NCBI GenBank assembly: GCA_947478405.1
Contig: CANJVX010000001.1
Location: 1-64,000, forward strand
Direction: 5' to 3'
DNA from: Beijerinckiaceae bacterium
GTDB lineage: Bacteria; Pseudomonadota; Alphaproteobacteria; Rhizobiales; Beijerinckiaceae
Length of the DNA: 64,000 nt
A program made the translations under genes and the position numbers. Under the pieces are notes generated by a model. It was not told the DNA's origin. It saw nothing but the letters and a program-made list of their open reading frames with translations, and searched no databases. This document shows, piece by piece, positions 27,233 through 57,352 of this stretch. The stretch's first letter is position 1, and every line of letters begins with the position of its first letter.

Positions 27233-27771
27233 GCGCTGATGATCAGTCGCGTCTGTTTACTAAGCCGTGGAAGCAAGCGGCGCATATCAGCGGCCGAAAT
27301 AGCGACACAGCCTTCCGTTCCTGCATAATCGGAGCGCGCCATATGAAAAAAAATGGCACTCCCTTTACCCTGAACTCTCGGGTTTTCATTGTGACTTGTG
27401 GGGAAAATCAAGTCATAGGCCTGATCTTCCCGCCAAAGAAGCTCATGGCCTGATCGCTCGTCTACGGGTACTGGACGATTGTAAACGCGTGTCCATGGCT
27501 CGTCGCCCCACCCCATTTTGCTGCGCAGCAAATTAAGACCAGGCCTGCAGCATAAGCGCAGCAAACGATCACCCCGATAAAAGCCAGGCTTGAGCTTGAA
27601 ACCACCGATGGGTGTCTTACCGTCCCCTTCACGCTTGGACCGGCTCACGCCGTTTTTTCCGATTGTAGCCCGTATCACGAGAGACCCGAAGTGAAGCCGA
27701 GCTTCAGATGGCGAAAGCCCCGGCCTGACCTGTCGGACCATGAGGCGGGTCGTTTTCTGGGTCGAACACAT
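27229..27771 (-). CDS. L,D-transpeptidase (YkuD family)
   Basis: GDGKTPIGGFKL and IFFHMARSDYAGTEGCVAIS catalytic motif. Confidence 0.9.
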   Translation of the reverse strand: MCSTQKTTRLMVRQVRPGLSPSEARLHFGSLVIRATIGKNGVSRSKREGDGKTPIGGFKLKPGFYRGDRLLRLCCRPGLNLLRSKMGWGDEPWTRVYNRPVPVDERSGHELLWREDQAYDLIFPTSHNENPRVQGKGSAIFFHMARSDYAGTEGCVAISAADMRRLLPRLSKQTRLIISA

Positions 27772-51124: not shown

Positions 51125-52810
51125 TCAGTTCCCTTCATCCAGAAGACGGCGGGCGATGACTTGTGCCTGAATCTCGGCCGCACCTTCGAAAATATTCAGA
51201 ATTCGTGCGTCGCACAGAACACGAGAAATTGGATATTCGAGGGCGAAACCATTTCCACCATGAATCTGTAAAGCATTGTCTGCTGCGGCCCAGGCAACCC
51301 GCGCCCCTAGCAATTTTGCCATGCCAGCCTCAACGTCGCAGCGCTTGTCTGCGTCTTTTGCGCGGGCGGAAAAATAGGTGAGTTGGCGTGCGATATGGAT
51401 TTCAACCGCCATCATCGCAATCTTGTCGGCTACACGCGGGAACTTTAGGAGTGGCTTACCGAATTGGATTCTCTCATGCGCATAGCGCAGACCAAGCTCA
51501 AGTGCATTTTGGGCAACACCAACAGCTCGTGCGGCTGTCTGAATGCGCGCAGATTCGAATGTCTGCATGAGCTGCTTGAAGCCTTGACCTTCGACGTCCC
51601 CGAGAAGATTGCCTACAGGCACTTCAAACCCATCAAAAGCTATTTCATATTCTTTCATACCTCGATAGCCGAGCACTTCAATCTCGCCACCCGACATGCC
51701 GCTCGCTGGAAATGGATTTTCGTCCGTTCTACGCGGCTTGCGTGCCAAAAACATAGACAGACCTTTATATCCAGGCTCAGCAGGATTGGTGCGCGCGAGC
51801 ACCGTCATAAGGTCGGCACGTACAGGATGGGTAATCCATGTCTTGTTTCCACTGATTTTGTAGGTGCCTTCATCTTTCACGGCACGCGTGCGCAAGGATG
51901 CCAGATCAGATCCGGTATTAGGCTCAGTAAAAACAGCTGTAGGTAGAATCTCGCCTGAAGCAATCTTGGGCAGGAATTCCTGCTTCTGTTCTTCCGTTCC
52001 GCCGCAAAGAATAAGTTCGGCAGCAATTTCGGAACGTGTTCCAAGAGAGCCAACACCAATGTAGGCGCGCGACAATTCCTCAGTCACGACACACATAGCG
52101 ATTTTGCCAAGACCCATGCCGCCATATTCTTCGGGGATTGTCAGACCAAAAACACCAAGGTTTGAGAGTCCATCAACAATCTCAAACGGAATATAGGCAT
52201 TGGTCAGATGCCATTCATGCGCATGAGGTGCCACTTCGCCCTCACCGAATTTTCGGATCTCATCGCGAATCGATTCCATTGTGTCATCGAGACCAGAAAC
52301 ACCGATCATTGCAGCTGAATCGAGTGTGGCGATTAAAGCGACAAGTCGTGCGCGGTTCGTTGCTGTGTTTCCAATGCAAATCATGCGCGTCACGGCACCT
52401 GAACGGAGTGCAGCAACATGTTCTGGCGAAAGACCAAAATCTTCTGGGCGAATAAATTCGCCTTGGTTCATCGGAATGCCGCCAAAAATTTGCGCGAGAT
52501 ATTCACCAATGCCAATTTGCGTCAGTAATCTTTCCGTCTCGCCAAAACGTCCCTCGATATCGAGACGCTCCGCATAAGCGATCATTTCCCGTATTGCTTC
52601 GACATAGGTCGCAATCCAGGCGAGGCCATGGCCCTCATGTTGCGCTTGTTCGAAGAGCTCAGATGAAATCTTGCCATTCGTAGAAACATGGGTGCGAACG
52701 AGTCCGCGCACGTCTGCATAAAGAATTTCAACCGAGGCGAAGGCCTCTCGGGCGGTTTGCAGCATGTCCAGCTGCTCGGCGGTGTTCAGCTGCGCTAGTT
52801 GGGCAGTCAT
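51125..52810 (-). CDS. mcd: (2S)-methylsuccinyl-CoA dehydrogenase (EMC pathway)
   Basis: Acyl-CoA dehydrogenase (TEPNTGSDLASLRTRA, QIHGGNGFALEYPISRVLCDARILNIFEGAAEIQ) with the long N-terminal extension typical of Mcd; next to ccr/ecm; start taken at MTAQLAQ. Confidence 0.88.
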   Translation of the reverse strand: MTAQLAQLNTAEQLDMLQTAREAFASVEILYADVRGLVRTHVSTNGKISSELFEQAQHEGHGLAWIATYVEAIREMIAYAERLDIEGRFGETERLLTQIGIGEYLAQIFGGIPMNQGEFIRPEDFGLSPEHVAALRSGAVTRMICIGNTATNRARLVALIATLDSAAMIGVSGLDDTMESIRDEIRKFGEGEVAPHAHEWHLTNAYIPFEIVDGLSNLGVFGLTIPEEYGGMGLGKIAMCVVTEELSRAYIGVGSLGTRSEIAAELILCGGTEEQKQEFLPKIASGEILPTAVFTEPNTGSDLASLRTRAVKDEGTYKISGNKTWITHPVRADLMTVLARTNPAEPGYKGLSMFLARKPRRTDENPFPASGMSGGEIEVLGYRGMKEYEIAFDGFEVPVGNLLGDVEGQGFKQLMQTFESARIQTAARAVGVAQNALELGLRYAHERIQFGKPLLKFPRVADKIAMMAVEIHIARQLTYFSARAKDADKRCDVEAGMAKLLGARVAWAAADNALQIHGGNGFALEYPISRVLCDARILNIFEGAAEIQAQVIARRLLDEGN

Positions 52811-52836
52811 CGCGTCATCTCCCGGGATTTGCGCAA

Positions 52837-52853
52837 TTGTTGCATCGCAGCAT
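52837..52853. promoter_or_regulatory. Candidate EMC operator copy 1 (TTGTTGC-ATC-GCAGCAT), upstream of mcd
   Basis: Shares TGTTGC-N3-GCA-N-CAT with the two copies between ccr and ecm. Confidence 0.45.
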
Positions 52854-53917: not shown

Positions 53918-55197
53918 TTACGTGGAACTATGGGCTTCGATCACATCGTCTAATGTTTTCAAACCTGGACGCGGTGAATTCACAAGCACAGCCATATTTC
54001 CTGGCGCATGCTGGTTTTTCCACATTTTCGTATGAGCGGCAGGGATTTTTCCCCATGGAAAAATTTCTCCCATGCACGGATCAATCCGACGATCGAGTAC
54101 GAATTGATTTGCCGCCGACGCCTGTTTCAAATGTGCAAAATGTGAACCTTGAATTCGTTTCTGGCGCATCCAGACGAAACGCGCATCAAAAGTTAGATTA
54201 AAGCCTGTGGTACCGGCACAAAATACAACCATGCCGCCACGCTTCACAACAAAGCATGAGGTTGGGAATGTTTGTTCACCAGGGTGTTCGAAACAATATC
54301 GACATCTTTACGGCCAGTAATATCCCAGATGGCTTTTCCGAACTTTCTGGCTTCCGCCATATAGGCAGAATATTCAGCTGAATTAACTTTCGGTAATTGG
54401 CCCCAACAATTGAAGTCCTTACGATTGAGAACACCGCGTGCACCAAGTGACATGACGAATTCGCGTTTGGATTCATCTGAAATGACGCCAATAGCATTTG
54501 CCCCGGCTGCAGCGCACAGCTGTACAGCAAAGACACCAAGGCCACCCGAGGCACCCCACACAAGCACATTATCGCCGGGCTTCAGGCGATGGGGCTCGTG
54601 GCCAAATAACATGCGATAGGCTGTTGCCAGAGTGAGTGTGTAAGAAGCGCTTTCTTCCCAGCTGAGATGCTTGGGACGCTTCATCAGCTGACGGTCTTGC
54701 ACGCGACAAAATTGTGCGAAGGAGCCATCCGGCGTCTCGTAACCCCAGATGCGCTGACTAGATGAAAACATCGGATCGCCACCGTTGCATTCTTCATCAT
54801 CGCCATCGTCCTGATTACAATGAACGACAACTTCGTCACCAACTTTCCAGCGAGTCACTTTTGAGCCAATAGCCCAGACGATGCCCGAAGCGTCAGATCC
54901 GGCTATATGAAAGGCGTGTTTATGTCCGTCGAGCGGCGAGATGGGCTCGCCGACTGCTGCCCAGACCCCGTTGTAATTAACGCCTGCCGCCATCACGAGA
55001 ACCAGAACGTCATGGCTGTCGAGCGACCATGTAGGAACCACCTCCAGCTGCATGGAGCTTTCCGGTGGGCCGTGGCGTTCTTTGCGGATCGTCCAGGCAT
55101 GCATCTTGGCCGGGACATGGCCGAGGGGAGGGATCTCCCCGATGTCGTAAAGATCCTTCAGCAGCAAAGTGCCGTCCGCTTGTTCTGAACCTGCCAT
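53918..55197 (-). pseudogene. ccr: Crotonyl-CoA carboxylase/reductase, split by a 1-nt frameshift near 54291-54293
   Basis: ORF 54244-55197 matches Ccr through FGKAIWDITGRKDVDIV, then goes out of frame. ORF 53918-54247 ([47 protein letters not shown]) carries the C-terminus. Adding one T restores [24 protein letters not shown]. Confidence 0.85.
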
Positions 55198-55239
55198 GTG
55201 CCGTCTCCTTCGAGCCAGGGCGGGCGAATGTTAGCGCGG

Positions 55240-55256
55240 ATGTTGCGCTGCACCAT
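55240..55256. promoter_or_regulatory. Candidate EMC operator copy 2 (ATGTTGC-GCT-GCACCAT)
   Basis: 17-bp imperfect dyad in the ccr/ecm divergent region; 15/17 identical to copy 3. Confidence 0.5.
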
Positions 55257-55327
55257 ACTACTAAGGTTTCGTAGACCCGTATGGTCCAGACGCATGACTT
55301 TCGTGTGAGAAAAGGGCTTAATCGGTA

Positions 55328-55344
55328 ATGTTGCTCTGCAGCAT
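55328..55344. promoter_or_regulatory. Candidate EMC operator copy 3 (ATGTTGC-TCT-GCAGCAT)
   Basis: 17-bp imperfect dyad, 88 bp centre-to-centre from copy 2. Confidence 0.5.
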
Positions 55345-55376
55345 GCCAAACTCTTGCAGGACCAGATGAGCCGCCG

Positions 55377-57352
55377 ATGACCACCGGAGCCCCAAAGCCT
55401 GACAAACCCTGGATTTTTCGAACCTATGCTGGTCATTCGACGGCGGCCGAGTCAAACCGGCTCTATCGGACCAATCTAGCTAAAGGCCAGACAGGCCTGT
55501 CGGTAGCTTTCGATCTACCCACCCAGACCGGCTATGATTCCGATCACATTCTAGCGCGTGGCGAAGTCGGCAAAGTCGGCGTGCCGATTTGTCACCTAGG
55601 CGATATGCGCACACTTTTCGATGGTATCCCCATTGCAGAGATGAACACGTCTATGACCATCAACGCCACAGCACCGTGGTTGATGGCTCTTTATATTGCC
55701 GCTGCTGATGAACAGGGTGCCCTACGCTCGGCTCTGCAGGGCACGACACAAAACGACATCATCAAGGAATATCTCTCGCGCGGCACTTATGTGTTTCCGC
55801 CCGTACCGTCCATGCGGCTCACGCGCGACATGATCCTGTTCACGACGAAGAATGTTCCCAAATGGAACCCGATGAATGTTTGCTCCTACCATCTGCAAGA
55901 AGCTGGAGCGACACCGGTGCAGGAATTGAGCTATGCGCTGGCAACAGCCATTGCGATTCTGGATTCTGTGAAAGCTTCAGGTGATCTTGATCCCAAGGAT
56001 ATGGGCGAGGTCGTCGGCCGGATCTCTTTTTTCGTGAATGCAGGGATGCGCTTTGTCACCGAGCTTTGCAAAATGCGGGCATTCACGGAATTATGGGACG
56101 AGATTACGAGAGACCGTTATAGCATTGCTGATGAGAAATACCGTCGCTTCCGGTATGGCGTTCAAGTGAACTCTCTGGGACTGACCGAGCAACAACCAGA
56201 AAATAATGTCTATCGTATTCTTATCGAAATGCTCGCGGTAGTGCTCTCAAAAAATACAAGAGAGCGCGTGCAGTGCAATTGCCTGCATGGAACGAGGCAC
56301 TAGGTCTTCCAAGGCCATTCGATCAACAATGGTCCCTGCGCATCCAGCAGATCATGGCCTATGAAACCGATCTTCTCGAATATGGCGATCTCTTCGACGG
56401 TAGCCATGAGGTCACACGTAAGGTTGAAGAGTTGAAAGCTCAGGCTCGCGCGGAACTGGCTGAGATTGAAAAGGTCGGGGGAGCGATTGCGGCAGTTGAA
56501 AATGGATATCTGAAATCCCGCCTTGTTGAATCCAATACGCGACGACTGGAATCTATTGAGCGGGGCGAGCAAGTTGTCGTGGGCGTCAACCGCTTTCTCG
56601 AAAGCGAAGCTTCACCACTCACAACAGGTAACAGCGCCATCATGGTTGTCCCTGATCATGTTGAGGCCGAACAGATTGAACGTTTGCAGGCATGGCGCCA
56701 ACAGCGAGATTCAAGAGCTGTTGAAAAAGCACTCGACGATTTGCGTCGTGCCGCCATGGATGGCCGCAACATCATGGAGCCTTCCATCGCAGCTGCAAAA
56801 GCGGGAGCCACCACAGGTGAATGGGGCGCTGTTCTACGTGGCGCGTTCGGTGAATATCGCGCTCCGACAGGCGTTGGCACATCAGCTCGACAGGTCGGTG
56901 GTGAGCTAGATGATGTGCGCAGCGAAGTTGAACGCGTTTCGCAAAAGCTCGGTCGCCGCCTAAAATTTCTTGTAGGAAAGCCTGGTCTTGATGGACATTC
57001 CAACGGCGCTGAACAGATAGCCGTTCGGGCGCGAGATGCGGGCATGGATGTAGTTTATGAAGGTATCCGTCTTACCCCTTCTGAAATAGTCGATGCTGCA
57101 CGCAGAAATGATGTCCATTGCATCGGGCTATCTATTCTTTCTGGCTCTCATGTCCAACTTGTGCGTGATGTCGCACAGCGGATGAAGCATGATGGGTTGA
57201 CACATATCCCCCTCGTTGTCGGCGGCATCATTCCACTAGAAGACGAAGTGAAACTGCTCGCCGAGGGCGTGGCGGCGGTCTATACGCCGAAGGATTATGA
57301 GCTCAATTCGATCATGCGCGATCTTGTGCGTATCGTTGATAAGCACAATTGA
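55377..57352 (+). pseudogene. ecm: Ethylmalonyl-CoA mutase, split by a frameshift near 56259-56264
   Basis: ORF 55377-56303 has the mutase N-domain (RTYAGHSTAAESNRLYRTNLAKGQTGLSVAFDLPTQTGYDSDH). ORF 56273-57352 continues VQLPAWNEALGLPRPFDQQWSLRIQQIMAYETDLLEYGD and the B12 domain GLDGHSNGAEQIAVRARDAGMDVVYEGI. Removing one AG from AGAGAG gives continuous VLSKNTRARAVQLPAWNEALG. Confidence 0.87.

Follow-up and report, generated by a model that had tools for sequence, protein, structure and literature searches.

In the closest described systems, PhaR (AniA), the sensor of the stored carbon polymer PHB, is a PHB-binding repressor of phasin and depolymerase genes that PHB granules titrate away (PMC12542648), and PhaR can also act as an activator. 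Its binding site has been given as CTGCNNNGCAG in R. sphaeroides and as WNWDDNYGCRNYGCRNHHWNW, with the core YGCRNYGCR, in S. meliloti (PMC12542648). Outside the CcrR of Methylobacterium, the switching on of the ethylmalonyl-CoA (EMC) pathway of acetate assimilation is poorly resolved. In Paracoccus, ccr did not respond to the loss of two of the three candidate regulators and was raised by deletion of the third, ramB (PMC10370305).

The window, which is the whole 64,000-nucleotide stretch of DNA analysed, carries the EMC genes ccr, ecm and mcd (Table 1). When compared with the closest relative, L018, ccr was found to be 94% and 91% identical and ecm 95% and 90% identical, each in two frames, and mcd was 90% identical over 562 aa to the L018 gene adjoining ccr/ecm. 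We take the latter gene to be mcd from synteny and from knowledge of the family. Start codons were inferred at 55197 (-) for ccr and at 55377 (+) for ecm, with 52813 as the likely start of mcd. Both ccr and ecm are frameshifted in this assembly, owing to either assembly error or recent decay; in L018 the two genes are unbroken, at 427 and 657 aa, respectively. Matches to the isocitrate lyase family in this genome were partial only; they came from ORFs of around 300 aa and spanned approximately 100 of the 526 positions (L283, L284; G000:C5, C23). A true isocitrate lyase may therefore be absent, and the EMC pathway may be the sole acetyl-CoA assimilation route in this genome, which is 95% complete.

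The original prediction described a repeated 17-bp dyad as a candidate EMC operator. Both 17-mers were present where predicted, inside the divergent ccr-ecm promoter region, and are identical at 15 of 17 bases. Each was confirmed as an imperfect inverted repeat fitting ATGNTGC-N3-GCANCAT, and the predicted spacing of 88 bp was obtained when measured start to start. A third copy upstream of mcd had not been part of the prediction; each EMC gene of the window cluster has its own box. In an Rfam scan of the window, there was no structured-RNA match except one tRNA, and a structured RNA was set aside as the identity of the element for lack of such a match. A scan for sigma-70 promoters and terminators found nothing.

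Table 1. Positions of the EMC genes and of the PhaR-type boxes in the window
Feature	Position	Strand	Basis
ccr, crotonyl-CoA carboxylase/reductase	53921..55197	-	TIGR01751, 426 bits vs cut-off 378.6; frame broken near 54292
ecm, ethylmalonyl-CoA mutase	55377..57352	+	PF01642; frame broken near 56246-56267
mcd, methylsuccinyl-CoA dehydrogenase	51125..52813	-	acyl-CoA dehydrogenase domains, long N-terminal extension
PhaR-type box at ccr, ATGTTGCGCTGCACCAT	55240..55256	.	PWM 16.0, window rank 2; 42 bp upstream of ccr start
PhaR-type box at ecm, ATGTTGCTCTGCAGCAT	55328..55344	.	PWM 14.9, window rank 4; 32 bp upstream of ecm start
PhaR-type box at mcd, TTGTTGCATCGCAGCAT	52837..52853	.	PWM 17.4, window rank 1; 24 bp upstream of likely mcd start
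Divergent ccr-ecm intergenic region, containing the ccr and ecm boxes	55198..55376	.	sequence, relatives compared

A symmetric position weight matrix (PWM), free of sequence from the window organism, was built from 19 S. meliloti sites whose promoters bound PhaR efficiently (EMSA-positive; PMC12542648 Table 3). When the window was scanned with this matrix (approximately 64,000 positions), the mcd, ccr and ecm boxes ranked first, second and fourth, with per-position p values of 1.8e-6, 4.0e-6 and 7.5e-6, respectively, against a first-order background. All three window sites have the TGC-N3-GCA / YGCRNYGCR palindrome flanked by AT-rich arms. Of five strong sites examined, four fit YGCRNYGCR fully, and the ecm site departs from the consensus at one base (T for R). 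The fifth match of the scan, TTTTGCTGCGCAGCAAA at window positions 27513-27536, is a near-perfect palindrome.

The S. meliloti PhaR boxes at SMc02856 (GAATGTTGCATTGCAGCATTG), rpoE8-acyP (AGATGCTGCACTGCAGCATTA), phaP1 and phaZ have the same YGCRNYGCR core and flanking arms as the boxes found here (PMC12542648), and the PHB targets, phasins and depolymerase, are common to both genomes. In contrast, ccr, ecm and mcd would be added targets in the window genome; the S. meliloti table has no EMC gene, and ethylmalonyl-CoA is not mentioned in that paper. The TGC-N3-GCA core is also present in the R. sphaeroides site and in the TGC-rich PhaR box of Paracoccus denitrificans, both as cited in PMC12542648 and PMC10888616. 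For these two species, phasin and pha genes are reported as targets, but EMC genes are not, within the limits of those citations. Taken together, the 17-base palindrome is very probably a PhaR binding site, judged by its match to these published sites.

The box was then followed in 80 loci of the genome collection named as ecm, together with further loci from relatives of the window genome, counting PhaR PWM scores of at least 11 within 250 bp upstream of non-redundant loci. Boxed upstream regions amounted to 63 of 88 for ecm, 56 of 76 for ccr and 8 of 23 for mcd among alphaproteobacterial loci, where locus redundancy was lowered by k-mer filtering, the counts are not independent events, and the 250-bp limit misses farther boxes such as the one at -284 in L109. 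In comparison, dinucleotide shuffling gave means of 1.3, 1.3 and 0.2, respectively, and only 3 of 254 other ORFs of the same loci had a box. A motif-free search of all 3-N(0-16)-3 dyads upstream of ecm returned TGC-N3-GCA on top, in 57 of 84 regions compared to 11.2 expected. In the 24 loci whose ccr and ecm starts were separated by over 600 bp, a box was found at each gene in 10 loci, at one in six and at neither in eight. Footprinting in relatives likewise bore out the dyads: the ccr box stands out as an island of conservation amid diverging DNA, with GCACCATA invariant in 8 relatives, the ecm box is kept in near relatives and the mcd box in several.

Chance similarity without function has a negligible probability. 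The loose pattern count in the window alone, 6 strand-hits compared to 2.9 expected, is weak evidence and not significant by itself, which leaves some room for chance, but the PWM ranks, the upstream counts, the motif-free dyad search, the conserved islands and the loci with separate promoters all speak against it, and chance is already refuted by conservation.

The spacing between the ccr and ecm boxes was 88 bp in L018, L099 and L100 and 96-98 bp in L019, L101 and L021. As only the closest relatives retain 88 bp, this spacing is not a fixed helical phase, and the variation makes the two boxes look like independent operators. A fixed 88-bp looping pair was ruled out on the same grounds. Spacing also bears on an ScfR-family regulator (RamB, PccR or MccR type) sensing EMC acyl-CoA intermediates, which we regard as a highly improbable occupant of the box. 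ScfR proteins control acetate and propionate assimilation, RamB and PccR tie acetyl-CoA assimilation routes to the metabolic state much as is proposed here for the PhaR box, and the ramB deletion in Paracoccus raised not only ccr but also ecm and mcd transcripts (PMC10370305). However, RamB uses two near-identical boxes 18 bp apart, whereas mostly single dyads were found here (53 of 70 boxed ecm regions), and the box pair has no fixed spacer, its spacing varying from 88 to 98 bp. RamB and PccR moreover differ from the present case in their paired boxes, their acyl-CoA ligands and the genes they control, which belong to the glyoxylate cycle or to the methylmalonyl-CoA branch, and the two Paracoccus deletions without effect on ccr were those of the putative PccR and MccR (PMC10370305).

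A genome-wide scan for the exact dyad pattern, as proposed with the original prediction, yielded three occurrences in the 3.03-Mb genome: the ccr box, the ecm box and one upstream of two phasin genes. When up to two mismatches were allowed, 143 sites were obtained compared to 45 for the reversed control. Good boxes were found upstream of tandem phasins (C39), of another phasin (C21 near 43.5 kb) and of the 3-hydroxybutyrate dehydrogenase gene bdhA (C8:16467). The box TTGCTGCAATGCAGCAT, with a score of 22.4, lies 17 bp before a PHB depolymerase-family gene (L001:2533-2549; G000:C1:173932) whose family annotation is of the extracellular type. The box thus stands at phasin and PHB-mobilisation genes of the window genome as well. 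Among phasin matches in 15 genomes, some of them tandem pairs, 26 of 30 had an upstream box scoring at least 14.

The bdhA box was kept in 9 of 24 relatives, and a box at pccA and mcmB in 3 of 49 loci, indicating that the box marks PHB genes and EMC-specific steps and not the shared propionyl-CoA branch. Inclusion of the whole propionyl-CoA branch in the regulon was rejected, the weak pccA and mcmB boxes of this genome not being conserved beyond near relatives. No box was found at phaC, and the phaR-phaA intergenic region has a weak box only (score 10.5).

Further boxes in this genome lie inside genes or before genes without an evident PHB link, and these may be chance or real. Without an evident PHB link are a box scoring 23.1 downstream of an RNase PH-like gene (L132:2472-2488; G000:C34:21071) and one scoring 19.3 approximately 210 bp upstream of an MFS transporter gene (L133:2890-2906; G000:C36:2890). 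Three PhaR-type boxes were also found within 180 bp (L128:2300-2481; G000:C1:115799-115980) in an intergenic region of approximately 520 bp between the gene for 3-oxoacid CoA-transferase subunit B and a TctA-like gene. This triple-box region gave no Rfam match, and it may represent a promoter or, as with mmgR of S. meliloti, a small-RNA locus.

The non-EMC intergenic matches, a large number of which the original prediction had named as evidence against an EMC operator, were thus found in part, and they include PHB-metabolism genes, which points to PhaR as the regulator. The operator-like character of the dyad and its conservation at ecm and ccr were upheld, with a third copy at mcd, but the link to TetR-type regulation by CcrR was not. 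In M. extorquens, CcrR is known to activate an EMC gene, according to works that cite it (PMC10370305, PMC4207312). The gene activated in strain AM1 is ccr, so that an EMC gene is acted on there as is proposed here for PhaR, although CcrR belongs to the TetR family and PhaR to another. A site for a CcrR-like activator of ccr is nonetheless very unlikely, given that the box also precedes phasin, depolymerase and 3-hydroxybutyrate dehydrogenase genes, that it matches an independently built PhaR matrix, and that it is missing from two of the four loci examined in Methylobacterium, the genus where CcrR is known. Overall, the box was missing at both genes in 16 of 82 loci carrying ccr and ecm, and the boxless loci include Methylosinus, Methylocystis, Methylobacterium sp. 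Leaf104 and Leaf117, Xanthobacter and Aquabacter. Several of these lineages grow on C1 and would presumably need the EMC pathway whatever the storage state.

PhaR itself is encoded in the window genome (C8:7881-8195), with PF05233, PF07879 and TIGR01848 (equivalog) above cut-off, and PhaC is present. PhaR was found in 49 of 51 genomes checked, the two exceptions being 58% and 88% complete; the latter, G040, has phasin boxes, yet PhaR was not detected. Because PhaR is present in nearly all genomes checked, its co-occurrence with the box does not discriminate. In the relatives, the flanks around the common 9-bp core were found to differ, EMC boxes favouring ATGTTGC...GCAACAT and phasin boxes TTGTGC...GCACAA. 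This difference could encode different PhaR affinity, and it leaves room for a PhaR paralogue. It is, however, very unlikely that a paralogue, or another regulator with a nearly identical site, runs the EMC genes while PhaR runs the phasins, as both kinds of flank occur among the S. meliloti PhaR sites positive by EMSA and nearly all genomes checked have one PhaR.

Judged by their PhaR boxes, ccr, ecm and mcd are probably direct members of the PhaR regulon, in this Beijerinckiaceae-like bacterium and in many other alphaproteobacteria, and would be derepressed by granule titration. When PHB is low, free PhaR would sit on the boxes near the ccr, ecm and mcd starts and occlude transcription. As PHB accumulates, granules would titrate PhaR off the DNA, and its release would jointly derepress phasins, PHB depolymerase, 3-hydroxybutyrate dehydrogenase and the EMC enzymes, allowing C4 units to enter assimilation. 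PHB synthesis and the EMC pathway have acetoacetyl-CoA and 3-hydroxybutyryl-CoA in common, which would make a PHB sensor a sensible switch for Ccr. By analogy with other species, we infer PhaR binding, the repression sign and PHB titration at the EMC genes. The repression sign is the weakest step of this mechanism: PhaR can also activate, the promoter scan of the window placed no promoter, and in other species the ecm and ccr boxes are mostly centred around position -100 relative to the start codon, which makes steric repression uncertain. In the main text of a paper on an M. extorquens phaR mutant, a change in ccr is not mentioned (PMC6520949).

Within the open-access literature searched, no paper was found to describe PhaR boxes at ccr, ecm or mcd, and PhaR and the EMC pathway co-occurred only as separate topics. 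The site type and the regulator are known, and the target set and its conservation provisionally appear to be new. The recurrence of the palindrome at the same genes in many alphaproteobacteria suggests that carbon storage and the EMC pathway are switched together. It is conceivable, though we would put it somewhat below an even chance, that PhaR titration is an old alphaproteobacteria-wide switch for ccr, ecm and often mcd, which would tie carbon storage to the branch point at crotonyl-CoA and leave the propionyl-CoA branch to other regulators, the box having been lost in lineages that use the EMC pathway for C1 growth (Methylocystis, Methylosinus, some Methylobacterium and perhaps Xanthobacter). 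With PhaR boxes conserved at these three EMC genes, a central carbon pathway that serves bioplastic and C2 engineering would gain a specific regulator and, in stored PHB, a specific signal. Mutations in phaR or phaC would then be expected to alter EMC expression where the box is present, and not where it is absent.
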